Shown in pieces: positions 1,459 to 62,968 of a DNA stretch of 64,000 nt (the stretch's first letter is position 1; every line of letters starts with the position of its first letter). The notes beneath the pieces were generated by a model that was given only the letters and a program-made list of their open reading frames with translations, was not told the origin of the DNA and did no database searches. The stretch comes from Nonlabens xylanidelens (GTDB lineage: Bacteria; Bacteroidota; Bacteroidia; Flavobacteriales; Flavobacteriaceae), in NCBI RefSeq assembly GCF_002934445.1, contig NZ_PTJE01000001.1:310001-374000 (forward strand). Reading direction: 5' to 3'. The position numbers were made by a program, and so were the translations under genes.

Positions 1459-1474
1459 CGCTTTCGCGAAAGCG
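1459..1474. repeat. iterated palindrome, copy 1 (exact, intergenic)
   Basis: Exact CGCTTTCGCGAAAGCG in the divergent moxR/SDR intergenic region. It lies 18 bp upstream of the possible -33 TTG of the SDR promoter. Confidence 0.95.
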
Positions 1475-1491
1475 AGGTTAAAATAAACATC

Positions 1492-1517
1492 TTGCTAACA
1501 CCTTTTCCCTACTTTTG
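1492..1517 (+). promoter_or_regulatory. promoter of the SDR gene
   Basis: TACTTTTG at 1510-1517 matches TAnnTTTG, with a TTG at 1492-1494 (15 nt gap, a little short of the usual 19). Transcription would begin near 1523, just before the ATG at 1533. This placement argues against a TTG start at 1515, which lies inside the -7 box. Confidence 0.5.
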
Positions 1518-1532
1518 TACAAAGAACCTGAT

Positions 1533-2285
1533 ATGAAAACTGCTTTAATTACTGGCGCAACTAGTGGAATAGGACTGGCAACCGCACAAACTCTAGCCGA
1601 TAACAATTATGCCCTTGTACTTTGTGGACGTAACGAAGAAAAGCTGGCCGAATTAAAAGAAGAGCTTTCTGAACTCGTTCCTGTGGAGACTTTATGCTTT
1701 GATGTACGTGATAAAGAAAAAGTAGAAGAACAAATTAACAGTCTTACAGAATTCCCTTTTAATGAGATCAATATCCTAATAAATAATGCAGGTAACGCTC
1801 ATGGACTGGACCCTATAGATAAAGGTAACCTAGAAGATTGGGACGCTATGATGGATATAAATGTAAAAGGATTGCTTTATGTAAGTCATGCGATTATACC
1901 TAAAATGAGAGAACGTAAAAACGGACATATCATCAACATAGGTTCTACCGCTGGTAAAGAAGTGTACCCAAATGGGAACGTGTATTGTGGCTCTAAGCAC
2001 GCTGTAGATGCTATCACTACAGGTATGCGACTGGATTTAAACCCATATAACATAAGAGTAGGTGCTGTAAATCCAGGACTGGTACAGACTAACTTCAGTG
2101 AGGTGCGATTTAAAGGAGATACAGAACGAGCAGACAAAGTGTATCAAGGTTACATGGCTTTACAACCACAAGATGTTGCAGAGGTTATTCTATTTGCCGT
2201 AACGCGACCACCGCATGTTAACATTGCAGACTTAACCGTGATGTGTACCGCACAGGCAAGTAGCGTAGTGTTGAAGAAAGACTAG
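1533..2285 (+). CDS. short-chain dehydrogenase/reductase (YdfG-like)
   Basis: A 250-residue classical SDR. The cofactor-binding TGATSGIG is at residues 8-15, NNAG at 84-87, and the catalytic Ser138, Tyr151 and Lys155 (YCGSK) are all present. R33 after the second strand favours NADP over NAD. The closest family by feel is the YdfG group (3-hydroxy acid / serine dehydrogenases), but the substrate cannot be read from sequence. An in-frame TTG at 1515 would add six residues, but it falls inside the promoter, so the ATG at 1533 is chosen. It stands alone, with a lipoprotein gene 49 bp downstream. Confidence 0.9.
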   Translation: MKTALITGATSGIGLATAQTLADNNYALVLCGRNEEKLAELKEELSELVPVETLCFDVRDKEKVEEQINSLTEFPFNEINILINNAGNAHGLDPIDKGNLEDWDAMMDINVKGLLYVSHAIIPKMRERKNGHIINIGSTAGKEVYPNGNVYCGSKHAVDAITTGMRLDLNPYNIRVGAVNPGLVQTNFSEVRFKGDTERADKVYQGYMALQPQDVAEVILFAVTRPPHVNIADLTVMCTAQASSVVLKKD

Positions 2286-2334
2286 AAACACCTTTCTTAT
2301 CAAAGCTTTTAAAAGAAGATAAAATAAACAAATC

Positions 2335-2721
2335 ATGAAAAAATTAATCCTCTTACTGAGCATTATACTTCTTGCGTCATGCACACAAGAAGTAGAACCT
2401 ACTATCGAAAACATGAATTCTATTTTTGAAAGCAAAGATTTTACTATCGAGTATCATCTGACAGATGCAAGGGTAGAATCCATGAGTTTTATTGAAGACA
2501 TTTTAGTTTACAAAGCAAATGATAGTGTTGTAAGAAAAACGATCTCCTTTGATGATGCATTACTGATCAACCAACTTATCCAAGAAAAATTTAAACAACA
2601 CGACAGTAACAATAAGGAAACCCCTTCTATAATTGTATTAAATACGGCAAAGAAGGTAACTTTGAAAATTCCTAACTATGAGGTGGACTACCTCAATTTA
2701 ATTAACAAATTAGACCTATAA
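2335..2721 (+). CDS. small lipoprotein of unknown function
   Basis: A 128-residue product with a lipoprotein signal peptide: MKK, a hydrophobic run, then the lipobox LASC with Cys16 as the lipidation site. The mature part is polar, with no motif I recognise. The stop codon is two bases before the hemB ATG, so it is co-transcribed with hemB. Nothing in the sequence links it to haem synthesis. It is probably anchored in the periplasmic face of a membrane. The gene call is secure from the signal, frame and spacing; the function is not known. Confidence 0.75.
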   Translation: MKKLILLLSIILLASCTQEVEPTIENMNSIFESKDFTIEYHLTDARVESMSFIEDILVYKANDSVVRKTISFDDALLINQLIQEKFKQHDSNNKETPSIIVLNTAKKVTLKIPNYEVDYLNLINKLDL

Positions 2722-2723
2722 AT

Positions 2724-3698: not shown

Positions 3699-3714
3699 AT
3701 AAGAACAAATTTTA

Positions 3715-3800: not shown

Positions 3801-4274
3801 ATGCCCAAAGATTCTTACACCGTAGAAGAAGCGACTCGTTCCATAGAGCGATACTGTGCCTATCAAGAGCGCTGTCATAAAGATGTGGAGGATAAATTAA
3901 AAAGCATGGGTGTTATTCAACTAGCAATAGATGAAATCATACCCCACTTGATCCATCACAAATTCTTGAATGAAACACGTTATGCCGAGGCTTTTGCGAG
4001 GGGAAAATTCCGTATTAAAAGTTGGGGAAGAGTACGTATAGTGCGCGAACTTAAAATGAAAGGCCTTAATGAACGTACTATAAAGATAGGACTCAAAGAG
4101 ATATCTGATGTCGATTATGAGATTGCTTTGGATACGCTTTCGCGAAAGCGATTACAACAAATAACTACGGAAAGTGATAAATATAAAAAGCGTAAAAAAC
4201 TTGCCGATTACCTGCTCTATAGAGGCTGGGAAAGCCACCTAGTTTATGCAAAAGCTGTAGAGCTTATTCCTTGA
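3801..4274 (+). CDS. recX: regulatory protein RecX
   Basis: A 157-residue protein with the three-helix repeats of RecX, including the RSYxxRxxxRxxxxKG-like elements KFRIKSWGRVRIVRELKMKGL. RecX binds and restrains RecA filaments. recA is not adjacent. The iterated palindrome (4135-4150) lies inside the gene and encodes TLSRKR near residue 115. The 3' end overlaps the convergent cupin gene by 11 bp and no terminator separates them. Length and helix pattern fit the family. Confidence 0.88.
   Translation: MPKDSYTVEEATRSIERYCAYQERCHKDVEDKLKSMGVIQLAIDEIIPHLIHHKFLNETRYAEAFARGKFRIKSWGRVRIVRELKMKGLNERTIKIGLKEISDVDYEIALDTLSRKRLQQITTESDKYKKRKKLADYLLYRGWESHLVYAKAVELIP
4135..4150. repeat. iterated palindrome, copy 2 (exact, in recX)
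   Basis: Exact 16-mer within recX, read in the frame that gives LSRKR. Confidence 0.95.
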
Positions 4275-6391: not shown

Positions 6392-7513
6392 TTATTTTTC
6401 TATCAGTAAACTTACTGCATTACCACCAAAGCCAGTCGCGTTGATTAAAATACGTTTAGGTATTCTAACATCTCCACGCGGATTCACAAATGAATCTTCT
6501 AAAAATGGAACAGTAAACATACTCTGTGATTGCAACATTTCTATTCCCATAGCTAGATTAAGCGCACTACTTGCACCTAGCGCATGACCTAATTGCCATT
6601 TATTATTACATAAACGCGGATATTGATCTCCAAAAATGCTCTTAATCGCAGTAAACTCTGCTCTATCTCCTTTTATTGTTCCAGGTGCATGAGTGATAAT
6701 TGCATCTACATCTTCTAGATTCATATGCTGTGTTGCCTGCCTCATTGATTCTTGAAGACAGTCTCCACTAGCGGTTACAGATGTTGCACTAGCTAGTTTT
6801 TCTATAGCGCTACCATAACCTGTTATTGTTGCAACACTGTTATTATCTTCTTTAGAAAGTAAAAACACAGCAGCAGCTTCTCCTAGAATCATGGAGTTTT
6901 GTGTCTTATCTAGATCCAGTGCTTTACATGGATACTGATCGGTATCTCGTGAATATATGCGTAAAGCCTGCATTTGACTCACTGTAAATGGTGTTAAAGG
7001 CGCTTCACTACCACCAGCTATAAAGCTAGTCGCCATACCACTTTCTAACCATGCAATAGCATTAAGTATCGCATGGGATGCCGTTGCACAGGTAATACTA
7101 TGTGAAAAAGCAGTTCCTTTAAGACCCAGATCTTGTGCTACCCAACTCGATATATTACCTAGTGTAGTTAATGGAGATGTTGCCGTTGGTACGGTTCCGC
7201 TTTCGCGAAAGCGAGAATAAAACTCTTCCCATAAACCAGTTGCACCACGACTAGAACCTATATTAATGCCCGTTTGTGATGGAACATTTTTCAAAGATCT
7301 AGCGGATAATAACGCCAGTTGCACACTACGGTCCAAGGATTTATACGATTCATTTTCTTTTAAAAATGCATTTAACTGAGTTTCTTTTCCGCTAGAAATA
7401 GGACCTACCCAAGCACTGTCTTTTTTATTAAAAAAACTAGTTTCTTGTTGATCTTTAAAAGAGTCTACCGCAGCTACCATGGCTGCATCGTTAATATATA
7501 TAGGGTTTTTCAC
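6392..7513 (-). CDS. beta-ketoacyl-ACP synthase (KAS I/II type) in the biotin cluster
   Basis: A 373-residue thiolase-fold condensing enzyme, about 40 residues shorter than FabF. The catalytic triad is Cys142 (SITCATASHA), His275 (ITHAPGTIKGD, where most relatives have HGTGT) and His310 (QLGHALGASS). It is therefore likely active. It sits between bioA and bioB, and no bioC, bioH, bioW or bioI is in the cluster. A role in building or extending the pimeloyl thioester is an inference from this position. The iterated palindrome at 7198-7213 encodes SRFRESG around residues 100-106. Confidence 0.85.
   Translation of the reverse strand: MKNPIYINDAAMVAAVDSFKDQQETSFFNKKDSAWVGPISSGKETQLNAFLKENESYKSLDRSVQLALLSARSLKNVPSQTGINIGSSRGATGLWEEFYSRFRESGTVPTATSPLTTLGNISSWVAQDLGLKGTAFSHSITCATASHAILNAIAWLESGMATSFIAGGSEAPLTPFTVSQMQALRIYSRDTDQYPCKALDLDKTQNSMILGEAAAVFLLSKEDNNSVATITGYGSAIEKLASATSVTASGDCLQESMRQATQHMNLEDVDAIITHAPGTIKGDRAEFTAIKSIFGDQYPRLCNNKWQLGHALGASSALNLAMGIEMLQSQSMFTVPFLEDSFVNPRGDVRIPKRILINATGFGGNAVSLLIEK
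7198..7213. repeat. iterated palindrome, copy 3 (exact, in ketoacyl synthase)
   Basis: Exact 16-mer preceded by GTTC. On the coding strand it reads RFRES. Confidence 0.95.
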
Positions 7514-9506: not shown

Positions 9507-9912
9507 TCACGTCAAATTTTGTATAACAACTCTTACACTGATAATTGTAAGAATTAGAAAAAGGAAAGATGTTTAAAACAACCGCTTTCATTTTATCTGC
9601 AAAGGTAGGTGCCGTTTCAATATCTCGTATTTCTCTAGCGTCTGTTTTTCCACAATTGGGACATTTTATATATTCTACACGATATTTTAATAAATCAGGA
9701 TTAGATTGTTCTAAAATACCCATCGCTTTTATAAAATCCTCTTTATACACCAGCATTTTAACACCACCTATAGCGTTAGTAGCAAATGGATCTGTTGCAA
9801 CGGTAAACTCATCTTTTAAGAAAACCTCTACCTGCTCACTCTCTAGCTTACCTTTTACTACAACAGCCTCTGCTGGATAAGCAAATACGGCTATGGTTTT
9901 AAATTTACTCAT
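9499..9912 (-). CDS. DUF2007 / zinc-ribbon protein embedded in the biotin operon
   Basis: A 137-residue protein. Residues 1-70 match the DUF2007 fold (FKTIAVFAYPAEAVVVKGKL, then FATNAIGGVKMLV), sometimes named a putative signal-transducing domain. The C-terminal half is a zinc ribbon with CPNC (Cys84, Cys87) and CKSC (Cys126, Cys129). There is no signal peptide; a short hydrophobic stretch (VVLNIFPF) lies between the cysteine pairs. It overlaps bioF by 4 bp and bioD by 8 bp, so it is made together with the biotin enzymes. Its function is unknown; a chaperone or regulatory role is only inference. Confidence 0.8.
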   Translation of the reverse strand: MSKFKTIAVFAYPAEAVVVKGKLESEQVEVFLKDEFTVATDPFATNAIGGVKMLVYKEDFIKAMGILEQSNPDLLKYRVEYIKCPNCGKTDAREIRDIETAPTFADKMKAVVLNIFPFSNSYNYQCKSCYTKFDVNE

Positions 9913-11030
9913 AAGTTTTTCAGAGTTTTGGCAAGTAATTGTAGCATGCCACTCATTTCATTTTCTGTATTAAAATTATGAATACATATACGCAGTCGTT
10001 CTTCACCCTTATTAACCGTAGGTGACAGTATCGCCCTAACATCATATCCATTCTCTTGGAGCGTAAATGCGGCTTTTTTTACCACCTCGTTATTAGGTAT
10101 GATACAAGTTTGAATGGCGGTCTCGCTTTCGCGAAAGCGTAATCTCAATCCAGCTTGCAACACAAGTTTATTAAACAACTCAATGTTACTAGTTAATCGA
10201 GAGATGACATCTTCACTACGACTCAAAGTAAGGTACCCATTTAAAATACACTGCAATGAATGCTCTGGCAATGCTGTGGTATAAATAAAACTGCGAGCAT
10301 AATTAATCAAATACTCTTTAAGGTCTTCACTACCTAAAACAGCTGCCCCATGACATCCCAAACCTTTACCAAAGGTCATAACGCGTGCAAAAACATCATT
10401 CTCTAGATCCAGATGTTGTGCAAGTCCGGCGCCATTTTTTCCTATAACACCTAGTGCGTGCGCCTCGTCTAATATTAAATGTGCGTTGTCAAACCTGCTA
10501 ACTAAATCTATCAATTTCTTAAGATCTGGCATGTCGCCATCCATAGAGAACACAGATTCTGTGATCACATACACCTGTCGACCCTCGGCCTCACTAAATT
10601 TTGATAGCAAAATTTCTAGATGTCTTAAATCATTATGACGGTATTTAAGAGATTTAGCTTGAGACAACTGTATCCCATCCCTTATACTTGCATGAACGAG
10701 TTGATCAAAAAGTATCAAATCTGCTCGATCTGTAAGTGCAGGTATGAGACCTATGTTTGCATCATAACCTGAATTAAATAGCAGAGCAGCTGGTGCATTA
10801 TGAAATTGTGCAATTTGATCTTCTATCTGGTTATGTAAATCGCTATGTCCAGAAATAAGTCTACTGCCAGTAGCGCCATTAGATTGCGCTTTATGTGACA
10901 CATGTATCTTAGAAAAACCTAGATAATCATTTGAAGAGAAATCTATAAGATGATCGTTTACAGTAAGTTTACGCAAACTCCCTGAGAAGTAACGCATACC
11001 TAAAAGAGTCTGTAGTTTTTCTGGAAGCAT
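9909..11030 (-). CDS. bioF: 8-amino-7-oxononanoate synthase
   Basis: A 373-residue alpha-oxoamine synthase joining pimeloyl thioester and alanine, the first committed step of biotin ring synthesis. Lys222 (TFGKGLGCHGAAV) is the PLP lysine. ESVFSMDGDMPDL and LDEAHALGVIGKNGAG are family signatures. It is the first gene of the leftward operon and overlaps the DUF2007 gene by 4 bp. A -7 box ends 4 nt before its ATG, so the transcript may be leaderless. The palindrome at 10124-10139 encodes RFRES near residue 300, inside a C-terminal domain strand. Confidence 0.93.
   Translation of the reverse strand: MLPEKLQTLLGMRYFSGSLRKLTVNDHLIDFSSNDYLGFSKIHVSHKAQSNGATGSRLISGHSDLHNQIEDQIAQFHNAPAALLFNSGYDANIGLIPALTDRADLILFDQLVHASIRDGIQLSQAKSLKYRHNDLRHLEILLSKFSEAEGRQVYVITESVFSMDGDMPDLKKLIDLVSRFDNAHLILDEAHALGVIGKNGAGLAQHLDLENDVFARVMTFGKGLGCHGAAVLGSEDLKEYLINYARSFIYTTALPEHSLQCILNGYLTLSRSEDVISRLTSNIELFNKLVLQAGLRLRFRESETAIQTCIIPNNEVVKKAAFTLQENGYDVRAILSPTVNKGEERLRICIHNFNTENEMSGMLQLLAKTLKNL
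10124..10139. repeat. iterated palindrome, copy 4 (exact, in bioF)
   Basis: Exact 16-mer. Coding frame RFRES on the minus strand. Confidence 0.95.
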
Positions 11031-14932: not shown

Positions 14933-14948
14933 CGCTTTCGCGAAAGCG
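14933..14948. repeat. iterated palindrome, copy 5 (exact, intergenic)
   Basis: Exact 16-mer between glmS and atpD. It is flanked by GTTC on the left and GGAA on the right, so the dyad extends outward. It lies just downstream of the glmS terminator in the sense of glmS transcription. Confidence 0.95.
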
Positions 14949-20716: not shown

Positions 20717-21700
20717 TTGAAGAGTCTTATTTTTAAAATATTAAAAATCGCCCTACCACTATTATTGGGCTTTTTTCTTATTTACATTTCTTACAACCAG
20801 TTTACTGATGAAGAAAGAGAAAAAGTATACTCTTATCTTCTAGATGCTAACTATGCATGGATAGCACTTGCAGTTACATTTGCCTTTTTAAGTCATTTAT
20901 CAAGAGCATGGCGATGGAATTACATGCTAGAAACTCTCGGCAAAAAACCTAAATTCATCACTAATGTTATGGCTATAGGCGCAGGGTATGCCATGAACCT
21001 TATCATACCTCGCAGTGGCGAGATCTCTAGAGCAGCCATAATCAACCGGTCTGACCACATTCCTATGGACAAAGCGATAGGAACCATTATAGCAGAGCGT
21101 GTTCTAGACCTTATCATTCTTTTAATAATAACCGCTACTGCCATACTTAGTGCGGGCGATGCCATTATTGGTTTCTTTAAAGATCATTTAGAATCCGCTT
21201 TCGCGAAAGCGGACCCAGTAAAAGCAACTCTCTACATTGCTATCTTTTTATTAATTATCATATTGATCATTTTTATCTCTAGAAAACTTCAATTATTCAA
21301 TAAAGTAAAAGGATTTATTCTAGGAATGAAAGAAGGATTTATGACCATATGGACCATGAAAAAAAAGTGGCTCTATTTCTTCCATACTTTATTTATTTGG
21401 AGCATGTACCTAGTCATGTTCTATGTTAGTATTTATGCTATCCCAGGTATTGAAACTATACCCATAAGCGCCATTTTATGCGCCTTTGTAGCTGGTAGTT
21501 TTGCAGTGGCATTCACAAATGGAGGCTTTGGCGCTTACCCATATTTTATCGCACAGGTATTGTTAGTTTTTGGTATTTCAGAAACATTAGGAACATCATT
21601 TGGATGGATATTATGGCTTTCTCAAACTATGTTAGTTCTCGTATATGGTCTAATATCTTTACTATTGTTATCCTTGAGAGGTACCGTTTCAAGTAAATAA
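20717..21700 (+). CDS. lysylphosphatidylglycerol synthase-type flippase-like membrane protein
   Basis: A 327-residue integral membrane protein of the LPG_synthase_TM / YbhN group, with about eight helices and the family motifs SHLSRAWRWNYML and RSGEISRAAI. Function in the family: lipid translocation or synthesis support, not known here. Translation most likely starts at TTG 20717, three bases after the panD stop, because no ATG occurs before the first conserved helix. The palindrome at 21196-21211 encodes ESAFAKAD in a loop between helices. Confidence 0.82.
   Translation: MKSLIFKILKIALPLLLGFFLIYISYNQFTDEEREKVYSYLLDANYAWIALAVTFAFLSHLSRAWRWNYMLETLGKKPKFITNVMAIGAGYAMNLIIPRSGEISRAAIINRSDHIPMDKAIGTIIAERVLDLIILLIITATAILSAGDAIIGFFKDHLESAFAKADPVKATLYIAIFLLIIILIIFISRKLQLFNKVKGFILGMKEGFMTIWTMKKKWLYFFHTLFIWSMYLVMFYVSIYAIPGIETIPISAILCAFVAGSFAVAFTNGGFGAYPYFIAQVLLVFGISETLGTSFGWILWLSQTMLVLVYGLISLLLLSLRGTVSSK
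21196..21211. repeat. iterated palindrome, copy 6 (exact, in flippase-like gene)
   Basis: Exact 16-mer with C and G just outside, giving an 18-bp perfect dyad. Coding frame AFAKA. Confidence 0.95.
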
Positions 21701-30857: not shown

Positions 30858-30873
30858 CGCTTTCGCGAAAGCG
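30858..30873. repeat. iterated palindrome, copy 9 (exact, intergenic accB/accC)
   Basis: Exact 16-mer in the 93-bp gap between accB and accC, inside the presumed transcript. In RNA it could form an 8-bp-arm dyad only by cruciform or dimer, because it has no loop. Confidence 0.95.
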
Positions 30874-38097: not shown

Positions 38098-38160
38098 AGT
38101 GCATGCAAAATACAAAATGTAGCACCATGCTTACAATGTCTTTAAGAATAAATAAGCATT

Positions 38161-41274: not shown

Positions 41275-41290
41275 CGCTTTCGCGAAAGCG
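41275..41290. repeat. iterated palindrome, copy 11 (exact, intergenic)
   Basis: Exact 16-mer between the divergent usp and antiporter genes. Confidence 0.95.
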
Positions 41291-45190: not shown

Positions 45191-47602
45191 ATGAAACACC
45201 TACCTTTTCTCACCTTTCTTATAGTATATAGTACGACTGCACAAACTAATCTTACAGGTACTGTAAACAGTAAAAATAAAGTAGGAATACCTTATGCAAC
45301 TGTAGTTACATTTAAAATGCCTGACAGTGTTTTTCATAAAGCCACCTCGGCAAATGAAAAAGGAGTTTTTAAATTTAATAATTTTGAACAAGGCACTTAT
45401 ACATTTCAGTTTTCTTCAGTTGGATATGTACCGCTTTCGCGAAAGCTAAACATAACAACTAATGAATCGTTAGGAGAATTTATCTTAGAAGAAGACACAG
45501 CACAGCTAGACGCAGTAGTATTAACAGCTGCAAAACCTACTATCGATAAAAAAGCAGACCGACTGGTTTTTAATGTTGAGAACACCATTTTAAGCGTTGG
45601 TAATACTCAAAACCTTTTAAAAAAGACACCTGGTATATTTGAGATGGAAGGAACTTACATGGTTCAAAACTCTCCTGCTGTAATTTATATTAACAACAAG
45701 CGTGTGTATTTAACTAATGAAGAGCTAGATGCATTATTACGTGGTTATAGTGCTGATAACATAAAGAGTGTAGAGGTTATCACAAATCCACCTGCTAGTT
45801 ATGATGCAGAAGGTGCTGCCGTCATTAATATCAACACCTCAAAAGGTATCTCTCTAGGCTATAAAGGAAACGTAAGTGGAAAATGGACTCAAGGTACTTT
45901 TACTAAATACCAGATAGGAACCTCTCACTTCTATAAGAATAACTGGTTAAATGTTTATGCTAACTACAACTACAACCCTAGGAAGGATTTTAAATTTGAC
46001 GACTCACAAATAGGTTTCTTTAATCCTGATGGAAGTAGGTCTGAAAGACGTTTTACTGAGTTAGAAAAAATAGAACGCAGTGCCTCTCATAATTTTAATA
46101 CGATCGTAGACATAACAGTAAATGAAAAAAATTCATTGAGCTTTTCTGGTAATTACAGCAGTAATGAAAATAATGATGCCAGTTATCAAAATGAAACTTT
46201 TATCCTACAAGAAGGCGCCACTACTTTTTCTGGCTTTAATACCGATTCTGATTTTGAGAAAAACAGAACTAACGGTTTTGTAAATGCACAATGGCAACAT
46301 GTTCTTAATGATAAAGGTGCAACATTAAACCTAGAAGGTAATTACATCTTTACCGATAGTGATCAGGTACAAAACCTTACTTCGACTTTCTTTGATACTA
46401 GCCAAACTACTACAGGTACTAATAGTTTTTTAACAGATGCTTTTCAAGAAATAGATATCTACACCGCAAAATTAGATTACAACACGAGTATAGGCAACTA
46501 CCAGTTAAGTTCAGGACTTAAATTTTCTAATGTAACATCTACAAGTTCACAGAACTTTTTTGACACTGATAGTGGCAGTACACTTAACCCAGCCTTCTCT
46601 GATTTGTTTTTATATGACGAGAGCATTTATGCTGCATATGCACAAATAGAGCGTAATTGGGAGAAATGGTCTATTGCAGCTGGATTGCGTGCAGAACAGA
46701 CAGACGTAGAAGGCGATTCTCAATCTCTAGGACAGGTTAACACACAGGAATACCTAGAGTTTTTCCCTAATCTAGCTATAACTAATCAGGCAAATGAGAA
46801 TAACTCCTATACCCTAAGTTATAAAAGAACCATAGACAGACCTAGATATGCTGACTTAAATCCTTTTAGCTCTTTTATAAATGACTTTAACTTCAGCACA
46901 GGAAACCCAAATCTACAGCCTGCTTTTAATAATAAATATACTTTAAGCTGGAATCATAAAAACACGTGGTTTGTAGATGCTTATTTTCTATACACAAAAG
47001 ATGTGCTAAGTGAGGTGCCTTTTCAAAATAACAGTAATAACCAGTTAAACTCGCAAAGCATAAATCTAAATTATGAATTGCAGTATAGTATAGATGCAGC
47101 AACCTATAGATACATAAATGACAGCTGGTATACAGGACTAAGCAGTAGCTTGTTCTATATGGAAAATGAAACTAGAGCAGTACAATCTGGTAATGTGGAT
47201 GTGAAAACATCTACCACAGGTTTATATTTAAGTTCTTTTAATAGAATCAATCTAGCAGATAATAGAACTTTATCCATGGACATAGAAGCGTCTTATATCT
47301 CCAGTCTTCTATTCGGTACTTATGAATGGGGTGGCTCATTCCCGACTAGCATCAGTTTTAATAAAAGCTTATGGAATAGAAGAGCGCAATTAACTCTTGC
47401 AGTTAACGACATCTTTAAAACCCAAAATCAAAGACTTACTACACGTTATTTAAACCAAGACAATTATTACCTAGCACTACCAGAAACTAGAACCATAAGC
47501 GTGGGCTTCACTTATAACTTTGGTAACTTTAGACTAGAAAACAATGAAGTAACCACTCCAGAAGAACAGAATCGTACAACTAAAAAAGAAGTAGGTTTAT
47601 AA
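45191..47602 (+). CDS. TonB-dependent receptor-like outer-membrane protein with CarboxypepD_reg-like domain
   Basis: 803 residues. A signal peptide (to about residue 18) is followed by a carboxypeptidase-regulatory-like beta-sandwich (LTGTVNSKNKVGIPYATVVTFK, residues 20-105), a plug-like segment (VEVITNPPASYDAEGAAVININTSKG) and a long barrel of the outer-membrane barrel family 3. The ligand is unknown. The palindrome at 45432-45447 (last base of the core changed) encodes PLSRKL in the N-terminal domain. It is monocistronic with a terminator. Confidence 0.87.
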   Translation: MKHLPFLTFLIVYSTTAQTNLTGTVNSKNKVGIPYATVVTFKMPDSVFHKATSANEKGVFKFNNFEQGTYTFQFSSVGYVPLSRKLNITTNESLGEFILEEDTAQLDAVVLTAAKPTIDKKADRLVFNVENTILSVGNTQNLLKKTPGIFEMEGTYMVQNSPAVIYINNKRVYLTNEELDALLRGYSADNIKSVEVITNPPASYDAEGAAVININTSKGISLGYKGNVSGKWTQGTFTKYQIGTSHFYKNNWLNVYANYNYNPRKDFKFDDSQIGFFNPDGSRSERRFTELEKIERSASHNFNTIVDITVNEKNSLSFSGNYSSNENNDASYQNETFILQEGATTFSGFNTDSDFEKNRTNGFVNAQWQHVLNDKGATLNLEGNYIFTDSDQVQNLTSTFFDTSQTTTGTNSFLTDAFQEIDIYTAKLDYNTSIGNYQLSSGLKFSNVTSTSSQNFFDTDSGSTLNPAFSDLFLYDESIYAAYAQIERNWEKWSIAAGLRAEQTDVEGDSQSLGQVNTQEYLEFFPNLAITNQANENNSYTLSYKRTIDRPRYADLNPFSSFINDFNFSTGNPNLQPAFNNKYTLSWNHKNTWFVDAYFLYTKDVLSEVPFQNNSNNQLNSQSINLNYELQYSIDAATYRYINDSWYTGLSSSLFYMENETRAVQSGNVDVKTSTTGLYLSSFNRINLADNRTLSMDIEASYISSLLFGTYEWGGSFPTSISFNKSLWNRRAQLTLAVNDIFKTQNQRLTTRYLNQDNYYLALPETRTISVGFTYNFGNFRLENNEVTTPEEQNRTTKKEVGL
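45432..45447. repeat. iterated palindrome, copy 12 (one mismatch, in receptor gene)
   Basis: CGCTTTCGCGAAAGCT, last base changed. Coding frame LSRKL. Confidence 0.88.
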
Positions 47603-49430: not shown

Positions 49431-49490
49431 CAACCTAATAATCCTATTGGTGACTGTTTAACAACTTTCCTTACTAGAAATTCCAACTTG

Positions 49491-51437
49491 ATGAAGAATT
49501 TTAAAATAATGTATTTGATAGTTTTAGTTCTCGCTTTCGCGAAAGCGGAACAGTCACAAGCACAAATCACGACATCTCAAGAAGGTGTTGAAGCCTGCCT
49601 CTTAAAATCTACATTATTCAACTCAGGAAATAGGGTAATAAATGGACGAACCTCAAATTACGACCTCAAATATGTACGATTAGAACTAGATGTAGACCCA
49701 GATGTTGCTGTAATTTCTGGTACAGTAACGTCACATTTTACTGCGGTAGGTGATATGGATCAGGTCGTTTTTGATCTAGCGTCTAATATGATTGTAAGTC
49801 ATGTAACTCAACGAGGTACTGCGCTTAATTTTATAAATAATGGCAATGATGAACTAGTAATTGATCTTCCTGCGATTCAAAACAACAGTGTTTTAGATAG
49901 TCTGAGTGTTACTTACAGCGGCAATCCTATAGCAAGCGGTTTCGGTAGTTTTGCACAGACTACGCATAATAACGCCGGTATTATATGGACACTTTCTGAG
50001 CCTTATGGAGCAAAAGCATGGTGGCCATGTAAACAAGATCTTAATGATAAAATAGACCAGACAGATGTAATTTTAAATGTACCGACCGGCAACACTGGTA
50101 TTTCTAATGGTCTAATGACTTCAGAAAGTATAACGCCTACAGGTAAAACTTTTAAATGGCAACACAATCACCCTATACCTGCCTATTTAATAGCTATCGC
50201 AGTAACAAATTATTCTAAATATACCGAGATGGTAGGCAGCGGTGCAACGGCTTTTCCTATAGATAACTATGTGTATCCAGAAAATCTAGTCAGCGCACAA
50301 TCGAGCACCGCAGTGACGGTTCCTATTATGAACTTTTTTGAAAACACCTTTGGCCCTTATCCTTTTAGAGATGAAAAATACGGGCATGCACAATTCGGTT
50401 GGGGTGGTGGTATGGAGCATACGACTATTAGTTTTATGGGTAACTTTAGTCGTGGTTTAATCGCTCACGAACTAGCCCACCAGTGGTTTGGTAATAAAGT
50501 AACCTGTGGCAGCTGGCAAGACATATGGCTCAATGAAAGTTTTGCCACTTACTCTACAGGAATGACAGTAGAGCATCTAGATGGTAACGACGCGTTTAAA
50601 TCATGGCGCGTTAATGCAAACAACAGAGCAACTACAGACTTGGACGGCAGTGTTTATGTGCCAGCGACAGATACCTTAAGTGTAGGCCGTGTTTTTAATG
50701 GTAACTTATCTTATAATAAAGGCGGTATGGTTTTACACATGCTACGCAAAAAATTAGGTGATGCTGATTTTGAACAAACACTCCAAAATTATCTTAACGA
50801 CTCGCAACTCGCTTACAACTATGCCAAAACCCCACAATTTAAATCAATAGCAGAAACAACTAGTGGACAAAATCTAGACGAATTTTTCAACGATTGGATT
50901 TATGGCGAGGGCTACCCACAGCACAACATAAACTGGATAGATATACCGAATGGTATCTCTATAAATTACATTCAAACACCTACTCATCCTTCCGTAAGTC
51001 TATTTGAAATGCAGTTGCCTATTAAAATAATAGGTGCCGCCGGAGAAGTACAATGGGACACCATTCTGGTCAATAGTCTGACTCAAAATAAGAGAATACG
51101 CGTACCATTTGTGGTTAGTTCTATAGAAATAGATCCAGATGTTGATACCATAAGTAAGAACAATACTGCTACACTAGGTTTAGATACCGCTTTCGCGAAA
51201 GCGGAATACCAACTCTACCCCAACCCAACTTCTTCCACCTTTCAAATTATAGGCATTCAAGAAGATTTTACAGCCCTTAAAATCTATGATCTACATGGAA
51301 GAATGATTATCGATTATAAAAAACAGCTGCTTAATAATCCTTCTCTCACTTTTAAAGCGCCACAAAACAGTGGGATATATTTTCTAAATCTAACTACAGA
51401 AAGAGGTACAACCATAGAGAAACTACTTGTACGCTAA
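49491..51437 (+). CDS. M1 family aminopeptidase with type IX secretion sorting tail
   Basis: 648 residues from the ATG at 49491 (a TTG at 49488 is also in frame). Zinc site His326-Glu327-x3-His330 with Glu349 (HELAHQWFGN to WLNESFA), and the exopeptidase-type GGMEH upstream. The C-terminus has a type A sorting domain (YQLYPNPTSSTFQI to GTTIEKLLVR), so it is exported by the type IX system. The iterated palindrome occurs twice: at 49532-49547 inside the signal peptide (LAFAKAE) and at 51188-51203 just before the sorting domain (TAFAKAE). Confidence 0.93.
   Translation: MKNFKIMYLIVLVLAFAKAEQSQAQITTSQEGVEACLLKSTLFNSGNRVINGRTSNYDLKYVRLELDVDPDVAVISGTVTSHFTAVGDMDQVVFDLASNMIVSHVTQRGTALNFINNGNDELVIDLPAIQNNSVLDSLSVTYSGNPIASGFGSFAQTTHNNAGIIWTLSEPYGAKAWWPCKQDLNDKIDQTDVILNVPTGNTGISNGLMTSESITPTGKTFKWQHNHPIPAYLIAIAVTNYSKYTEMVGSGATAFPIDNYVYPENLVSAQSSTAVTVPIMNFFENTFGPYPFRDEKYGHAQFGWGGGMEHTTISFMGNFSRGLIAHELAHQWFGNKVTCGSWQDIWLNESFATYSTGMTVEHLDGNDAFKSWRVNANNRATTDLDGSVYVPATDTLSVGRVFNGNLSYNKGGMVLHMLRKKLGDADFEQTLQNYLNDSQLAYNYAKTPQFKSIAETTSGQNLDEFFNDWIYGEGYPQHNINWIDIPNGISINYIQTPTHPSVSLFEMQLPIKIIGAAGEVQWDTILVNSLTQNKRIRVPFVVSSIEIDPDVDTISKNNTATLGLDTAFAKAEYQLYPNPTSSTFQIIGIQEDFTALKIYDLHGRMIIDYKKQLLNNPSLTFKAPQNSGIYFLNLTTERGTTIEKLLVR
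49532..49547. repeat. iterated palindrome, copy 13 (exact, in M1 signal peptide)
   Basis: Exact 16-mer followed by GAAC. It encodes AFAKA at residues 15-19 of the signal peptide. Confidence 0.95.
51188..51203. repeat. iterated palindrome, copy 14 (exact, before M1 sorting domain)
   Basis: Exact 16-mer flanked by C and G. Again in frame AFAKA, 1656 bp from copy 13, the closest pair in the window. Confidence 0.95.
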
Positions 51438-52988: not shown

Positions 52989-53062
52989 TCCTCCTTAGCT
53001 CAGTTGGTTAGAGCATCTGACTGTTAATCAGAGGGTCCTTGGTTCGAGCCCAAGAGGAGGAG
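52989..53062 (+). tRNA. tRNA-Asn (GTT)
   Basis: 74 nt. Acceptor TCCTCCT (52989-52995) pairs with AGGAGGA (53055-53061), discriminator G at 53062. The D arm GCTC/GAGC, anticodon stem TCTGA/TCAGA around loop CTGTTAA (anticodon GTT at 53023-53025), and T arm CTTGG-TTCGAGC-CCAAG are all complete. CCA is not encoded. Confidence 0.97.
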
Positions 53063-53063
53063 C

Positions 53064-53095
53064 AAAAATCCCAATCAGCAATGGTTGGGATTTTT
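53064..53095 (+). terminator. terminator after tRNA-Asn
   Basis: AAAAATCCCAA (53064-53074) / TTGGGATTTTT (53085-53095), directly after the tRNA. The stretch from here to 53255 holds no gene I can see. Confidence 0.88.
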
Positions 53096-53255: not shown

Positions 53256-54695
53256 ATGAGCTGTAATAGTTGTGGAACTGGTGGTGGTACGCCTGGTGGA
53301 TGTAAAAATCATGGAACCTGTGGTACAAGTGGATGTAATAAATTAACGGTTTTTGACTGGCTAGCAAACATGGAGCTGCCCGATGGTCAAAAAGCTTTCC
53401 CATATGTGGAAGTACGTTTTAAAAATAGCAGAAAAGAATTCTTTCATAATTCAGAAGGTCTTCAGCTTAAAATAGGCGACATAGTTGCTACCGAGACTCA
53501 AAGTGGTCACGATATAGGAATAGTAACCATAACTGGTGAGTTAGTGCGTGTACAAATGAAACGCAAACGCATTAAAATAAATGGAGAAATTCCAAAAGTT
53601 TACCGCATCGCAAATGAAAAAGATGTTGAAAAATGGGTGACTGCTCGCGAGAAAGAAGAACCTATGAAAGTACGCGCTAGACAGATAGCGATACGTCTTC
53701 AACTTAAAATGAAGATCTCTGACATAGAATTTCAAGGTGATGGTTCTAAAGCAACCTTCTACTACACTGCCGATGATCGCGTAGATTTCAGAGAATTAAT
53801 TAGAGAATACGCTTCAGAATTCAAGACTAGAATAGAAATGCGTCAGATAGGGCTGCGTCAGGAAGCTGCTCGTTTAGGCGGTATAGGATCGTGTGGTCGT
53901 GAATTGTGTTGTAGTACATGGTTAACAGATTTTAGATCTGTAACTACAGGTGCTGCTCGTTATCAAAACTTATCATTAAACCCACAGAAACTAGCGGGAC
54001 AGTGTGGAAAATTAAAATGCTGTCTTAATTACGAGCTGGATTCTTACATGGACGCACTAAGTACGTTTCCTAAACAAAATCAAAAACTTTATACCGAAAA
54101 AGGAACCGCCGTATGTCAAAAAGTAGACATATTTAAAGGCCTAATGTGGTATTGTTATGAAGGTGACTGGATGAGCTGGCATACTCTTACTACAGAGCAA
54201 GTTCATGAAATAGTATCAAAAAACAAGGCTAAAGAAACAGTTGCTAGCATTGAAGAATATGCGAGCGAATTAATAGTAGAGGAAGAAGTTAGTTTTGAAA
54301 ACGTAGTAGGTCAGGATAGTTTAACACGTTTTGATCAACCTAAGTCAAAATCAAAATCTCGCAACAAACGCAACAAGAAACGTAGACCTGCAAAACCTCA
54401 AAATAAAACAACAACAGCAACTGCTGCTTCACCTAAAGAAGGACAGCCTGCTCGTAAACCTAGACCTAAACAAAACAACCGAACACCTAAGGCTAAAACT
54501 AACAACAACAACAACAACAACAACAAGCCTAATACTAAAAAACCTGCTAGCGCAAATAGAAACACTAATAAACCAAAACCGGCAAGTGACAATGCCACAG
54601 GTGAAACAAAGCCTAATAAGCCTAGAAATAACCGTAATAAAAGCCGTAATCGTAACAAAAACAACGATAGTAAACCGCCTAAAAAAGAAGATTAG
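53256..54695 (+). CDS. PSP1/RicT-like iron-sulfur-associated regulatory protein with basic tail
   Basis: 479 residues. A Cys/Gly-rich N-terminus (MSCNSCGTGGGTPGGCKNHGT) precedes the PSP1 domain (about 50-300), with GSCGRELCCSTWL and GQCGKLKCCLNYELD supplying conserved cysteines. In Bacillus the RicT relative works in an iron-sulfur complex controlling RNA maturation and development; the role in flavobacteria is not established. The last 120 residues are low complexity, rich in Lys, Asn and Pro, with an Asn run from an AAC repeat. It is followed directly by gldH, whose GTG overlaps the stop by 1 base. Confidence 0.85.
   Translation: MSCNSCGTGGGTPGGCKNHGTCGTSGCNKLTVFDWLANMELPDGQKAFPYVEVRFKNSRKEFFHNSEGLQLKIGDIVATETQSGHDIGIVTITGELVRVQMKRKRIKINGEIPKVYRIANEKDVEKWVTAREKEEPMKVRARQIAIRLQLKMKISDIEFQGDGSKATFYYTADDRVDFRELIREYASEFKTRIEMRQIGLRQEAARLGGIGSCGRELCCSTWLTDFRSVTTGAARYQNLSLNPQKLAGQCGKLKCCLNYELDSYMDALSTFPKQNQKLYTEKGTAVCQKVDIFKGLMWYCYEGDWMSWHTLTTEQVHEIVSKNKAKETVASIEEYASELIVEEEVSFENVVGQDSLTRFDQPKSKSKSRNKRNKKRRPAKPQNKTTTATAASPKEGQPARKPRPKQNNRTPKAKTNNNNNNNNKPNTKKPASANRNTNKPKPASDNATGETKPNKPRNNRNKSRNRNKNNDSKPPKKED
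54501..54524 (+). repeat. (AAC)8 microsatellite
   Basis: Eight AAC triplets encoding eight Asn in the tail of the PSP1 protein. Slippage would change length by whole codons without shifting frame. Confidence 0.9.
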
Positions 54696-55189
54696 TGAGA
54701 GTATTAATATGCCTTTTAATAACATTAACGATAGTCTCTTGTGACGACTTGTTAGTAGATGCAAATTATGAAAGTCTACCACCTTCTGGATGGGACATTA
54801 ATGACACAGCAACTTTTAACATTACACCGCAAGACACAACTACGGTCTATAATCTATATTTGAACCTGCGCAACACGCATGAATATGAGTATAATAACCT
54901 CTGGTTGATCTCACAGATAAAATTTCCTCATGGAAAAATCGTTACAGATACATTACAGTATGAAATGGCGGCACCAGATGGTAGTTTTTTAGGCACAGGA
55001 TCAAATGACATCTATGAAAATAAATTATGGTTACGTGAAGGGGTACGCTTTCGCGAAAGCGGAACATACCAACTAGCACTTAAACACGCAATGAGAAAAA
55101 CAGGAGAAGTAAAAGGAGACACCCAATTAAAAGGGATTCTTGAAGTAGGATATAGTATAGAAAAACAAGTGCAAGATGGCAGCAACTAA
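54695..55189 (+). CDS. gldH: gliding motility lipoprotein GldH
   Basis: 164 residues starting at GTG 54695, which overlaps the preceding stop. Lipobox TIVSC (Cys16). The GldH pattern of a short beta-rich domain is visible (TYNLYLNLRNTHEYEYNNLWLISQIKFPHGK, GTYQLALKHAMR). GldH is needed for flavobacterial gliding, together with the type IX machinery that exports the M1 peptidase above. The palindrome at 55046-55061 encodes VRFRESG. It overlaps PBP1A by 14 bp. Confidence 0.88.
   Translation: MRVLICLLITLTIVSCDDLLVDANYESLPPSGWDINDTATFNITPQDTTTVYNLYLNLRNTHEYEYNNLWLISQIKFPHGKIVTDTLQYEMAAPDGSFLGTGSNDIYENKLWLREGVRFRESGTYQLALKHAMRKTGEVKGDTQLKGILEVGYSIEKQVQDGSN
55046..55061. repeat. iterated palindrome, copy 15 (exact, in gldH)
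   Basis: Exact 16-mer followed by GAAC. Coding frame RFRES. Confidence 0.95.
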
Positions 55190-58235: not shown

Positions 58236-59910
58236 TACCGTAGCATCCATAAAGGATCTTAACGTTAGCTTTTCAAATGGAAAAGAGAACGTTAAGGTGT
58301 TACATGATATCAATTTTGACATATTTAAAAACGAGATACTTGCCGTAGTTGGAGAATCTGGCAGTGGTAAATCTGTCACTAGCAAGGCGCTTATGGGTTT
58401 ACTACCTAATGCCACAGCACAAATAACTGCTCAAGAACTTTCTTTGTTGGGCAAGGATTTATTACTATTAAATGATGGAGAATGGTCTCGCTTTCGCGGA
58501 AGCGAGATAAGCATGATCTTTCAAGAACCTATGAGTTCTCTTAACCCTACTATAACCTGTGGACAGCAAGTCATAGAGATACTACAACAACATCAAAAAA
58601 TTGATACATCGAGTGCTAGAAAAGAAGTTTTTGAGCTTTTTAAAAAGGTAAAACTACCTACTCCAGAAATAACGTTTTCAAAATACCCACATGAAATAAG
58701 TGGTGGACAGATGCAACGCGTTATGATTGCTATGGCAATTGCGTGCAAGCCTGCATTGTTAATTGCAGACGAGCCTACTACTGCACTAGATGTAACCGTG
58801 CAAAAAGAGATTATTTTATTACTCAAAGAATTGCAACAAGAATACGGGATGAGTATTCTCTTTATATCACACGATCTATCATTAGTACGTGCTATTGCAG
58901 ATAGGATACTGGTTATGTATCAAGGTAAAATAGTAGAGCAAGGAACAAGTAAAACTATTTTTGAAACTCCTAAAGAAACATATACCAAGGCACTTATCGC
59001 ATCCAGACCTAGTACTACAGAGCGTGTTAAAAAACTACCGACCATAAGTGATTTTATGCAACATACGGTAGACGGAGATTTGATCACTCCATCGCAACGA
59101 GCGGCTACACATAAAAATATTTATAACCAAGACCCTTTATTACATCTAGTTGACATAGTAAAAGATTACCCACTCAAGGTAAAGCTTTTTAAAAAGCAAA
59201 CCTATTTTAGAGCAGTAGATGGTGTCAGTCTTAATCTATATCCTGGTGAGAGTCTAGGACTAGTAGGAGAAAGTGGTTGTGGAAAAAGCACTCTAGGCAA
59301 CCTGATTTTACGTTTGAAAGATGTGACCAGCGGTAAAATTATCTATCGCAATAGAGACATTACACATCTTACAGGCAAAGCAATGCGCGAGTTGAGAAAA
59401 GAGATTCAAATAATCTTTCAAGATCCTTTTGCTTCATTAAACCCACGACTTACTGTAGGGCAAGCTATTATTGAGCCTATGAAATGGCATGGTATAGGAG
59501 ATAATCACGCTCATAGAAAAGAAAAGGTACTTGCTTTATTAAAACGAGTAGGATTAACTGAAGAGCATTACAACAGGTATCCACATGAATTTAGTGGTGG
59601 CCAGAGACAGCGCATAGGTATAGCAAGAACAGTAGCCTTAGAACCTAAGTTAATCGTATGTGATGAAAGTGTAAGTGCTCTCGACATTTCTGTACAAGCA
59701 CAGGTTTTAAATCTTTTAAATGAGTTTAAAGCAGATTTTGGATTCTCTTATTTATTCATTTCCCATGACCTTGCGGTAGTTAAATACTTTTGCGATCAGG
59801 TTATTGTAATGAACAAAGGTAAAATAGAAGAAAGAAACGAGGCAGATGCTCTTTATGAAAATCCGCAAAGCGATTATACTAAAAAATTGATTGCGGCAAT
59901 ACCACAATAA
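58213..59910 (+). CDS. ABC transporter, tandem ATP-binding protein (oligopeptide/YejF type)
   Basis: 565 residues holding two complete ATPase domains. Walker A: GESGSGKS (about 47-54) and GESGCGKS (about 353-360). Signatures: SGGQMQR and SGGQRQR. Walker B: LLIADEPT and LIVCDES. Each domain has the C-terminal YTK/YTKKLIAAIP element of the Dpp/Opp group. The permeases are not here, so they are encoded elsewhere. The palindrome variant at 58489-58504 encodes SRFRGSEI at a position where the family conserves RG-x-EI. Confidence 0.92.
   Translation: MSKSSQNNTVASIKDLNVSFSNGKENVKVLHDINFDIFKNEILAVVGESGSGKSVTSKALMGLLPNATAQITAQELSLLGKDLLLLNDGEWSRFRGSEISMIFQEPMSSLNPTITCGQQVIEILQQHQKIDTSSARKEVFELFKKVKLPTPEITFSKYPHEISGGQMQRVMIAMAIACKPALLIADEPTTALDVTVQKEIILLLKELQQEYGMSILFISHDLSLVRAIADRILVMYQGKIVEQGTSKTIFETPKETYTKALIASRPSTTERVKKLPTISDFMQHTVDGDLITPSQRAATHKNIYNQDPLLHLVDIVKDYPLKVKLFKKQTYFRAVDGVSLNLYPGESLGLVGESGCGKSTLGNLILRLKDVTSGKIIYRNRDITHLTGKAMRELRKEIQIIFQDPFASLNPRLTVGQAIIEPMKWHGIGDNHAHRKEKVLALLKRVGLTEEHYNRYPHEFSGGQRQRIGIARTVALEPKLIVCDESVSALDISVQAQVLNLLNEFKADFGFSYLFISHDLAVVKYFCDQVIVMNKGKIEERNEADALYENPQSDYTKKLIAAIPQ
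58489..58504. repeat. iterated palindrome, copy 16 (one mismatch, in ABC gene)
   Basis: CGCTTTCGCGGAAGCG. The changed base makes Gly in RFRGS, matching the conserved Gly of RGxEI; same deviation as copy 8. Confidence 0.88.
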
Positions 59911-61363: not shown

Positions 61364-61384
61364 ATTGACATTTAAGTTTTAACT

Positions 61385-61416: not shown

Positions 61417-61445
61417 GTTATCTAGAAAGAACAAACATTAGAGGT

Positions 61446-61589
61446 CTACTTCTCTGTATCAGTACTTTTTTTATCACCGTTTGCGAGGCTATAAACTACT
61501 AACACTAGCGCTATACAAACCACGGCAAACACACCTATTATAACAGTACCCATTCCCCAATTTACAAGAGGTAAAAAAATTGTATTCAT
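61446..61589 (-). CDS. 47-residue single-helix membrane microprotein
   Basis: From ATG 61589 to TAG 61446 the product begins MNTIFLPLVNWG, continues with one hydrophobic helix (about 13-34) and ends in a charged tail (NGDKKSTDTEK). It is the last gene of the cbb3 assembly cluster, 17 bp after the TauE-like gene and before the terminator. Its size and topology recall small single-helix subunits of oxidases (CcoQ- or CcoS-like), but I see no family motif, so this is inference. Confidence 0.6.
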   Translation of the reverse strand: MNTIFLPLVNWGMGTVIIGVFAVVCIALVLVVYSLANGDKKSTDTEK

Positions 61590-61606
61590 ATCTTTAATTT
61601 TATTAG

Positions 61607-62314
61607 TTAATGACAACTCTGGTTTGCCGATATCGTTTCCATAGCAACAGATTCTGATGGTGATATGTATTTAATACCTAATCCCAGACCTCTTACTATA
61701 AATAGTAATCCTATTATTATTACAAAAACAGGTATCAGTTTTAATACCTTTTGTTTTGCCTGTCCCTTTAAAAAATTACCTAGGTATATCGCGGTAGTCA
61801 TTAAAGGCACTGTCCCTAGCCCAAAGAGAACCATGTATAAAGCGCCATATCCAGCACTACCAGAAGCTAAAGAACCGAAAACTGCCATATAGACTAAACC
61901 ACAAGGCAATAAACCATTAAGAAAACCCATAGTGAAAAAAGTACCTGGATCTTTCTTTTTAAGTTCTTTTCCCATCGCACTTTTCACCCTTCCTACTAGA
62001 GCATATATAGGTCTAGAAAAGTTGTATTTATTAAATATCTTAGTAGGTATCAAAACCACTATAATCATCGCGACACCTATAATGATAGATAGCTGCTGTT
62101 GTATACCAAAAAGGTGCATGCTTTTACCTAAAAAACCAAATACAAAACCTAAAAAGCCATAGGTAAACAACCTACCTCCATGATAACCCAATAACTGGAA
62201 AAAGCGTTTACTCTTACTCTTGCGATCTAATGGCAATAAAAATGCAATAGGACCGCACATTCCCACACAGTGAAAACTACCCAGTAAACCAAATATGAGT
62301 GCAGACCACAACAT
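61607..62314 (-). CDS. sulfite exporter TauE/SafE family (CcoS-adjacent metal transport-like) membrane protein
   Basis: 235 residues with about six membrane helices. The N-terminal GSFHCVGMCGPIAFLLPL and central NGLLPCGLVYMAVFGSLASGS motifs mark the DsbD/TauE-like group that accompanies cbb3 oxidase assembly genes, where copper or thiol transport is suspected. It starts 2 bp after fixH. The likely job is help in cbb3 maturation, from position only. Confidence 0.88.
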   Translation of the reverse strand: MLWSALIFGLLGSFHCVGMCGPIAFLLPLDRKSKSKRFFQLLGYHGGRLFTYGFLGFVFGFLGKSMHLFGIQQQLSIIIGVAMIIVVLIPTKIFNKYNFSRPIYALVGRVKSAMGKELKKKDPGTFFTMGFLNGLLPCGLVYMAVFGSLASGSAGYGALYMVLFGLGTVPLMTTAIYLGNFLKGQAKQKVLKLIPVFVIIIGLLFIVRGLGLGIKYISPSESVAMETISANQSCH

Positions 62315-62316
62315 TC

Positions 62317-62763
62317 TTAATAAAGTATTTCTTCTTTATACATGTAAGACTGCCCATCATACGTCCAGTCTATAGTAATATTCCAGCGACCGCCTATCAT
62401 TTTATTGTCAGGTATGAGCAAATTATGATCAGATAGTGAAAGTTCAGTCTCAAAATCCAATACTTGATTAGACGGTCTATAAAGGAACATTTTACCTTTA
62501 ATTCTCTCTACGTTTAACTGCGATGGAAAAGTAATCATCCATCCGTTTTCAGTTCTTTTACTTACTATTTTCTCAGAGAGGTTATTTGCATTTGTCTCTG
62601 CATCTATCTCATTTTGATAGTACATTTCTTTCTCATAGTATTCTTCTGTTACTAGGTCATGACTATATCGCTGGTCTGTAATCATGGTGATTACAAAGTA
62701 TAGTATAAAGCCTATAAAGCAAGACATACCTACTACTATTCCTGTTCCCCAATTCCATTTCAT
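62317..62763 (-). CDS. FixH family protein
   Basis: 148 residues. One N-terminal membrane helix (about 8-27) is followed by a periplasmic domain with the FixH arrangement (YSHDLVTEEYYEKEMYYQNEIDAETNA, then GKMFLYRPSNQVLDFE, GRWNITIDW). FixH/CcoH is a cbb3 oxidase assembly factor. It lies between the Cys-rich microprotein gene (32 bp gap) and the TauE-like gene (2 bp gap), in the order usual for Bacteroidota cco clusters. Confidence 0.9.
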   Translation of the reverse strand: MKWNWGTGIVVGMSCFIGFILYFVITMITDQRYSHDLVTEEYYEKEMYYQNEIDAETNANNLSEKIVSKRTENGWMITFPSQLNVERIKGKMFLYRPSNQVLDFETELSLSDHNLLIPDNKMIGGRWNITIDWTYDGQSYMYKEEILY

Positions 62764-62795
62764 CTCCTTAATCCGATTTAGTCGGCGGCTATTAA

Positions 62796-62936
62796 TTATT
62801 TAACTACTGCTTTCTTTTCTGTAGCAATAGATTTATTGGCCAGTTTTTCCATCATTAATTTTGCCTGGCAACTTTGATTTAAACCTGGTTGCCCTTTTTT
62901 ACAACCCTGACAGCAATTCTTTTTTTCTGCACTCAT
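62796..62936 (-). CDS. 46-residue cysteine-rich microprotein in the cbb3 cluster
   Basis: ATG 62936 to TAA 62796. The product starts MSAEKKNCCQGCKKGQPGLN, with Cys8, Cys9 and Cys12 and a fourth Cys23 in NQSCQAKLMME; the rest is a lysine-rich helix (to KKAVVK). It has no signal peptide or membrane helix. It lies between ccoG and fixH on the same strand, so it is co-expressed with them. Four cysteines in so short a protein suggest metal binding, possibly copper or iron handling for the oxidase (inference). I do not recognise a family. Confidence 0.65.
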   Translation of the reverse strand: MSAEKKNCCQGCKKGQPGLNQSCQAKLMMEKLANKSIATEKKAVVK

Positions 62937-62952
62937 AGTTAGATGTTTGTTA

Positions 62953-62968
62953 CGCTTTCGCGAAAGCG
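62953..62968. repeat. iterated palindrome, copy 17 (exact, between ccoG and microprotein)
   Basis: Exact 16-mer ending 3 bp before the ccoG stop codon on the minus strand. Confidence 0.95.

Follow-up and report, generated by a model that had tools for sequence, protein, structure and literature searches.

What could a chromosome gain from a perfect 16-bp palindrome that returns every few kilobases? The question is raised by a stretch of 64,000 nucleotides of the Nonlabens xylanidelens genome (contig NZ_PTJE01000001.1, positions 310,001 to 374,000), called here the window, in which an earlier note had counted 17 copies of such a palindrome, 13 exact and four with one mismatch. A rescan of the window tolerating up to three mismatches gave the same counts and no copies with two or three mismatches. 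The answer proposed here, tentatively and with less than even confidence, is that the palindrome lies at the centre of a site of about 50 bp with two-fold symmetry, bound as double-stranded DNA by a candidate protein of the Nonlabens-Dokdonia clade that would act in chromosome architecture or segregation.

Genome-wide iteration and distribution

The palindrome is iterated throughout the genome. In the assembly to which the window belongs (3.28 Mb, 21 contigs) 579 exact copies were found, and 708 when one mismatch was allowed, against none for the reversed-sequence control, so that the count lies far from expectation and a restriction of the palindrome to the window is rejected. The mean over 100 dinucleotide shuffles of the window was 0.06 matches. 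A sample composed of the window and 20 further stretches of the same genome (464 kb, hereafter the own sample) contained 87, 24, 5 and 3 copies with 0, 1, 2 and 3 mismatches, respectively, whereas 46 control palindromes of equal composition averaged 0.07 copies at two mismatches and 0.59 at three. The shuffles, the genome-wide count and the control palindromes together reject an origin by chance.

The iteration is restricted to a clade, and in Nonlabens and Dokdonia one copy falls on roughly every four to five kilobases. In a search of 79 genomes all 23 Nonlabens, including the window's own, held 180-737 exact copies each, while 54 of the 56 other genomes had none and the remaining two had four (G033) and two (G042). 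A second survey, of 395 genomes of the family drawn evenly, yielded six that were dense in the palindrome, namely four Nonlabens, a Dokdonia (G230, 630 copies) and a related genome (G216, 153 copies); 48 others had 1-13 copies and 341 had none. A scan of named genomes gave at least 109 stretches with the palindrome, of which 44 were from Nonlabens (five being BBFL7), 50 from Dokdonia and 15 from others. In a tree of one protein, GlmS (29 rows), Nonlabens, Dokdonia and G216 grouped together with support of 93/89, and the motif-poor genomes fell outside.

Stray copies in other genera occur in clusters, and among the places listed the same spacings recur, namely 698, 933, 2446-2481 and 3460 bases. 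Examples from other flavobacterial genomes are those at 3229 and 3927 of stretch L046 and at 156 and 1089 of stretch L057, and both lie in what we take to be efflux-like genes. The common spacings and this location suggest that the stray clusters were moved by horizontal transfer. Sixty kilobases from each of six genomes of other genera, and 40 kb from a seventh, contained no 12-base palindrome with three or more copies and no 10-base palindrome with more than four. A non-palindromic 8-mer, TTCCGAAG, was found to be iterated in seven genomes (G029, G033, G122, G299, G412, G124 and G141), with 499-2187 occurrences on both strands against 95 to 322 in the reversed controls. In five Nonlabens it is rare (5 occurrences in the window's genome, control 60), and it is possibly another lineage-specific motif.

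Spacing of the sites

The sites are evenly spaced. The coefficient of variation (CV) of the spacings was compared with that of uniform placement in 2000 simulations per genome sample. The own sample gave a CV of 0.41 against 0.89 for uniform placement, with 2 of 90 spacings below 1.5 kb where 29.9 were expected. For a second Nonlabens, the single-contig genome G019, the values were 0.50 against 0.90 (9 of 88 short spacings, 32.5 expected), and for the Dokdonia G230 they were 0.59 against 0.91 (10 of 83, 29.7 expected). None of the 2000 simulations reached so low a CV in any of the three samples. Of the spacings in the two Nonlabens samples 154 of 178 lay within 2-7 kb, gaps longer than a sampled stretch being invisible in this count. 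All 61 sampled 20-kb stretches of the three genomes contained sites, namely 2-7 in each of 20 from the own genome, 2-10 in each of 20 from G019 and 2-9 in each of 21 from G230; ten stretches of G216 had 1-5 sites each.

Along the G019 chromosome the index of dispersion of the site counts was 0.55, and no obvious trend in site density was seen over the 20 sampled stretches. The densest of these (L325, G019:C1:290001-310000) had 10 sites in 20 kb and, judging from the protein starts, presumably spans the trp and his biosynthesis operons.

Anatomy of the site

The site is longer than its palindrome. Around the 111 full or near-full sites of the own sample, 220 half-flanks showed G at +1 in 42%, A at +2 in 64%, A at +3 in 74% and, at +4, C in 38% or T in 37%. 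On the outward strand G was reduced to 2-10% over positions +3 to +18 (15% at +13) against a background of 18%, and more weakly to about +24, while A was preferred at +2, +3, +6, +9 and +11 to +13; the inward strand is rich in T and G. This signature is long, symmetric on both sides of the palindrome and reaches about +18 to +24. The depletion of outward G is equally clear in genic and intergenic sites and is therefore not caused by codons. The letters next to the core depend on the genus, being (G/A)AA in Nonlabens and TA(A/C) in Dokdonia. The earlier note had observed that 16 of 34 adjacent bases in the window extend the dyad, and the flanks as printed agree; its view that the site exceeds 16 bp holds, but the upper size of 24 bp that it gave is too small. 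The base frequencies along the flanks raised the suspicion of an 18-bp periodicity in A/T skew, which was also viewed in coarse bins.

Lone half sites are scarce. Outside full and near-full sites the half site CGCGAAAGCG had a single match in the own sample, against the 111 sites. Of the 24 one-mismatch copies, 12 differ at the first or last base of the palindrome. As to location, 67 of the 111 sites lie in open reading frames (ORFs) and 44 between them; since ORFs of at least 80 residues cover 89% of the sample, the gaps are enriched in sites, although the majority of sites is genic. Convergent, divergent and tandem gaps showed no consistent difference in their use as site positions over three genomes. 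A function as intrinsic terminator was rejected, only 10 of 222 sides having TTTT in the first 12 nt outward. When four sites of the window were folded as single-stranded hairpins, the z values were -1.05, -1.02, -1.40 and -2.42, three of them unexceptional.

Conservation between relatives

Nonlabens orthologues preserve the sites at the DNA level. For five sites of the window, orthologues were taken from blocks of up to 20 kb of 20 other Nonlabens, giving 33 rows, of which 28 retain the site with at most two mismatches, four are without it and one has it in a gap. Among codons that specify the same residue, 148 of 157 (94%) are identical within the site. The share falls to 188 of 324 for the ten flanking codons on either side and to 5056 of 10009 (51%) elsewhere in the gene.

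The positions themselves are seldom shared with Dokdonia. One of 12 orthologue comparisons between Nonlabens and Dokdonia had the site at the same position, and an earlier, cruder test, which likely included paralogues, had none of eight; in comparisons with G216 the shared positions were 1 of 3, 1 of 2, 2 of 4 and 1 of 3, these being partly reciprocal. Because density and evenness are alike in Nonlabens and Dokdonia while the positions differ, selection seems to act on coverage and not on particular loci.

The orthologue rows shown without a site (rows with unaligned end codons excluded) align gap-free at its place, which points to substitution rather than insertion; one gapped case was met in the DNA alignments (L145 at 49532). 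This bears on the possibility that the palindrome is mobile, a mini-insertion of the kind in which repetitive extragenic palindromic (REP) elements are spread by a REP-associated tyrosine (RAYT) transposase. High copy number and palindromic form would suit such an element, and Y1 transposase matches exist in 11 of 15 motif-dense genomes. They are missing, however, from G004, G007, G019 and G216, which hold 676, 680, 653 and 153 exact sites, and an insertion fits neither the gap-free rows nor the strong conservation and even spacing. A REP/RAYT-type transposase is thus not supported as the agent, transposition in general is disfavoured, and we consider a mobile palindrome very improbable. The comparison made in the earlier note, which placed the palindrome nearer to highly iterated palindromes than to transposed repeats, is borne out by the same gap-free alignments and missing transposases and by the lack of any longer shared sequence in the flanks.

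Occurrence in phages

Some phages carry the sites. A scan of a viral collection returned 41 stretches with the 16-mer, several of them in high-GC contigs, where single matches may be due to chance. One viral contig of 37.4 kb has seven sites (six exact) in 27.9 kb of non-overlapping stretches, a density biased upward because such contigs were chosen for having a site. Two of its sites lie in ORFs matching the portal and large terminase families, and the same phage recurs in a second contig with 100% identity over 13.6 kb. A different site-bearing viral contig encodes an integrase. Pooled viral sites (37 distinct sites, stretches of at most 50% GC) have a similar but weaker flank pattern. Neither of two isolated Nonlabens phages, P12024S and P12024L (together 71 kb, with ERF and YqaJ among their annotated recombination genes), contains a site at up to three mismatches, against about 17 expected at the density of the window's genome.

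Candidate reading proteins

A sequence-specific reader of the palindrome likely exists. Scarce lone half sites, symmetric flanks and placement independent of genes argue that it is a symmetric protein binding double-stranded DNA, probably a homodimer, and its role may be architectural. The earlier note had listed a methylase among several possible readers and had remarked on a distant likeness to ParB/Noc sites; the distribution of C5 methylases and of ParB-family proteins does not support a reader of either type.

Matches to HTH_ParB were single in six of seven motif-dense genomes, and the seventh, G019, adds a further weak match in a frame of 616 residues, of a type that also occurs in motif-poor genomes. 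With one strong ParB per genome and no additional copy tracking the motif, an extra ParB is not supported as the reader. The palindrome shares the TTTC...GAAA dyad with the parS and Noc sequences; it differs from TTTC-N4-GAAA in its two-base spacer, which as the earlier note had remarked is 2 bp shorter, and in its hundreds of sites throughout the genome.

C5 methylases are absent from five of ten motif-dense genomes, including the window's own, a distribution that does not support this type as the reader (adenine and N4-cytosine types lay outside the search). The same result touches the explanation that the palindrome is a by-product, created and kept by methylation and biased mismatch repair with no reader function, like the highly iterated palindrome HIP1 and the alternate HIPs of cyanobacteria (GCGATCGC). 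PMC4390886 describes these as short perfect palindromes, highly iterated, within genes and lineage-specific, with deviations concentrated at the outer bases. In Nonlabens, too, a perfect palindrome is vastly over-represented genome-wide, and the outer-base deviations of half the one-mismatch copies recall HIP1. The Nonlabens palindrome nevertheless has 16 bp and not 8, long asymmetric flanks, even spacing and no C5 methylase common to the motif-dense genomes tested, and repair bias explains neither the spacing nor the flank signature. We therefore regard such a by-product as quite unlikely.

The uptake of DNA was judged from T2SSE, the family of type IV pilus and type II secretion ATPases, other pilus parts lying outside the search. 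A match over the cut-off was found in two of 26 genomes, one being the window's own, and in one of seven motif-dense genomes, which weakens the uptake role suggested in the earlier note. In the window's genome the T2SSE-type match is strong (G000:C8:126205-127296); four other Nonlabens tested are without it. An uptake or exchange tag would mark self DNA and favour its uptake or recombination within the clade, as do the DNA uptake sequences (DUS) of Neisseriaceae and the uptake signal sequences (USS) of Pasteurellaceae. With these the palindrome has in common that it is clade-specific, iterated and mainly genic (67 of 111 sites), with a core, weaker flanks whose letters vary with the genus, and an evenness that has been reported for USS as well (Karlin, as cited in PMC1939737). 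PMC7965970 reports that Riemerella columbina, which it assigns to Flavobacteriaceae, is naturally competent and prefers its own DNA; the same assay found no competence in Flavobacterium johnsoniae. Against a tag of this kind stand the rarity of the ATPase, missing over the cut-off from six of the seven motif-dense genomes, and the presence of several sites in some phage contigs with a similar flank trend. The site is moreover palindromic, as no uptake sequence is known to be. An uptake tag is accordingly thought unlikely.

Recombination offers a further explanation, judged somewhat less probable than the uptake tag, in which the palindrome is a Chi-like site that makes a helicase-nuclease of the AddAB type switch from degradation to the loading of RecA; even coverage would protect the DNA, and phages could exploit it. 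RecBCD itself is not supported as the reader, RecC being found in 0 of 34 genomes. PDDEXK_1 nuclease matches occur in all 26 genomes tested, two each in 22 of them and one in the window's own. Their frames measure about 900 and 1050 residues, from which these could be AddB and AddA; with matches in every genome, their distribution does not track the motif. RecA prefers DNA rich in T and G, as the inward strand is. Sites are present in some phage contigs and missing from the two isolated phages with ERF and YqaJ annotations, and the iterated 8-mer of some other genera is a different one, all of which would fit a Chi-like site. With the Chi sites of RecBCD and AddAB the palindrome likewise shares a dense cover of the whole genome, strand-asymmetric surroundings and a possible use by phages. 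Chi, however, is a non-palindromic sequence recognised on a single strand. The palindrome is 16 bp long and evenly spaced, and one lone half site stands against 111 full sites, though a half should suffice for a reader of a single strand.

Proposed function

The proposal of a symmetric double-strand DNA-binding protein would account for these features as follows. Selection would keep neighbouring sites roughly 2-7 kb apart, using any gene or gap that can accommodate one. The most likely job of the reader would be chromosome maintenance, since a segregation protein, or an architectural one that organises the nucleoid or its loops, would need evenly spread anchor points.

Several observations weigh against this proposal. 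The strand-specific depletion of outward G is not obviously explained by a plain helix-turn-helix dimer, and no gene for the reader was identified among the families tested (RecC, ParB, C5 methylase, Y1 transposase, T2SSE and PDDEXK_1). Evenness is weaker in Dokdonia (CV 0.59), and in G216 with one mismatch allowed it is not significant (CV 0.69 against 0.80, 428 of 2000 simulations as low); with two mismatches allowed it appears there (0.50 against 0.81, 3 of 2000). Very short spacings occur occasionally, for example 270 bp in G019, and a 31-kb stretch of the genome G016 has no exact sites. The 20 kb examined of this stretch, the sole candidate for a site-free island, contain two one-mismatch and two two-mismatch copies among apparent core genes; it was therefore rejected as such, and exact matches are not indispensable. 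Uptake sequences, finally, are also called evenly spaced in the remark of Karlin quoted above; PMC1939737 itself holds that their spacing falls short of the evenness to be expected of compaction sites.

It is tempting to go further and to speculate that the sites form a clade-wide coverage code, by which DNA without a site over more than several kilobases is treated as not belonging, with poor organisation, segregation or protection as the result. Spaced copies would then have evolved independently in the chromosome and in some resident phages, and their reader would represent a new class of bacterial DNA-binding proteins, one that covers about 50 bp. We hold this extension to be unlikely. Should the architectural proposal be true, the selected, evenly spaced anchors would make nucleoid organisation or the recognition of own and foreign DNA directly testable, and, the site being known letter by letter, its protein could be obtained with one bait.

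Even spacing, site-by-site conservation, clade restriction and the long strand-asymmetric flanks are additions to what was first observed. The open-access literature searched (subscription journals and preprints lay outside it) contained no occurrence of the 16-mer or of its 12-base core, and open-access titles and the beginnings of abstracts on these genera or on palindromic motifs held nothing on such a motif. PMC5217627, on spaced motifs, contained none of the six terms, flavobacterial or on spacing, looked for in it.

Copies in the window

Twelve of the 17 copies lie within ORFs and five between them. The intergenic copies, all exact, are at 1459-1474, 14933-14948, 30858-30873, 41275-41290 and 62953-62968. 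Exact copies within ORFs are found at 4135-4150 (ORF 3801-4274), 7198-7213 (6392-7513), 10124-10139 (9909-11030), 21196-21211 (20717-21700), 23067-23082 (22907-24277) and 55046-55061 (54695-55189). Two more share the ORF 49488-51437, at 49532-49547, close to its start, and at 51188-51203, each with at most two mismatches in six of eight orthologues. The one-mismatch copies are at 27416-27431 (ORF 25929-29339), 37714-37729 (37243-38115), 45432-45447 and 58489-58504. Sixteen of the 17 coordinates first given were right, and the copy assigned to 37724 is at 37714; it is retained in the one orthologue compared. At 45432 the mismatch is at an outer base, and all six orthologues retain the site with one or two mismatches.

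Alignments of DNA must span the site and hence favour conserved places, a bias that applies to three further comparisons. The copy at 41275 is present in the one relative with an alignment across it, and that at 55046, which was outside the protein-based count, has at most one mismatch in 11 of 11 relatives. The one-mismatch variant at 58489 is identical in nine of ten relatives, the tenth adding a second, symmetric change; in the protein-based comparison nine of ten rows have one mismatch and one has the site in a gap. A short stretch of the window at 52993-53095 gave many partial matches across Nonlabens genomes and probably contains tRNA genes.

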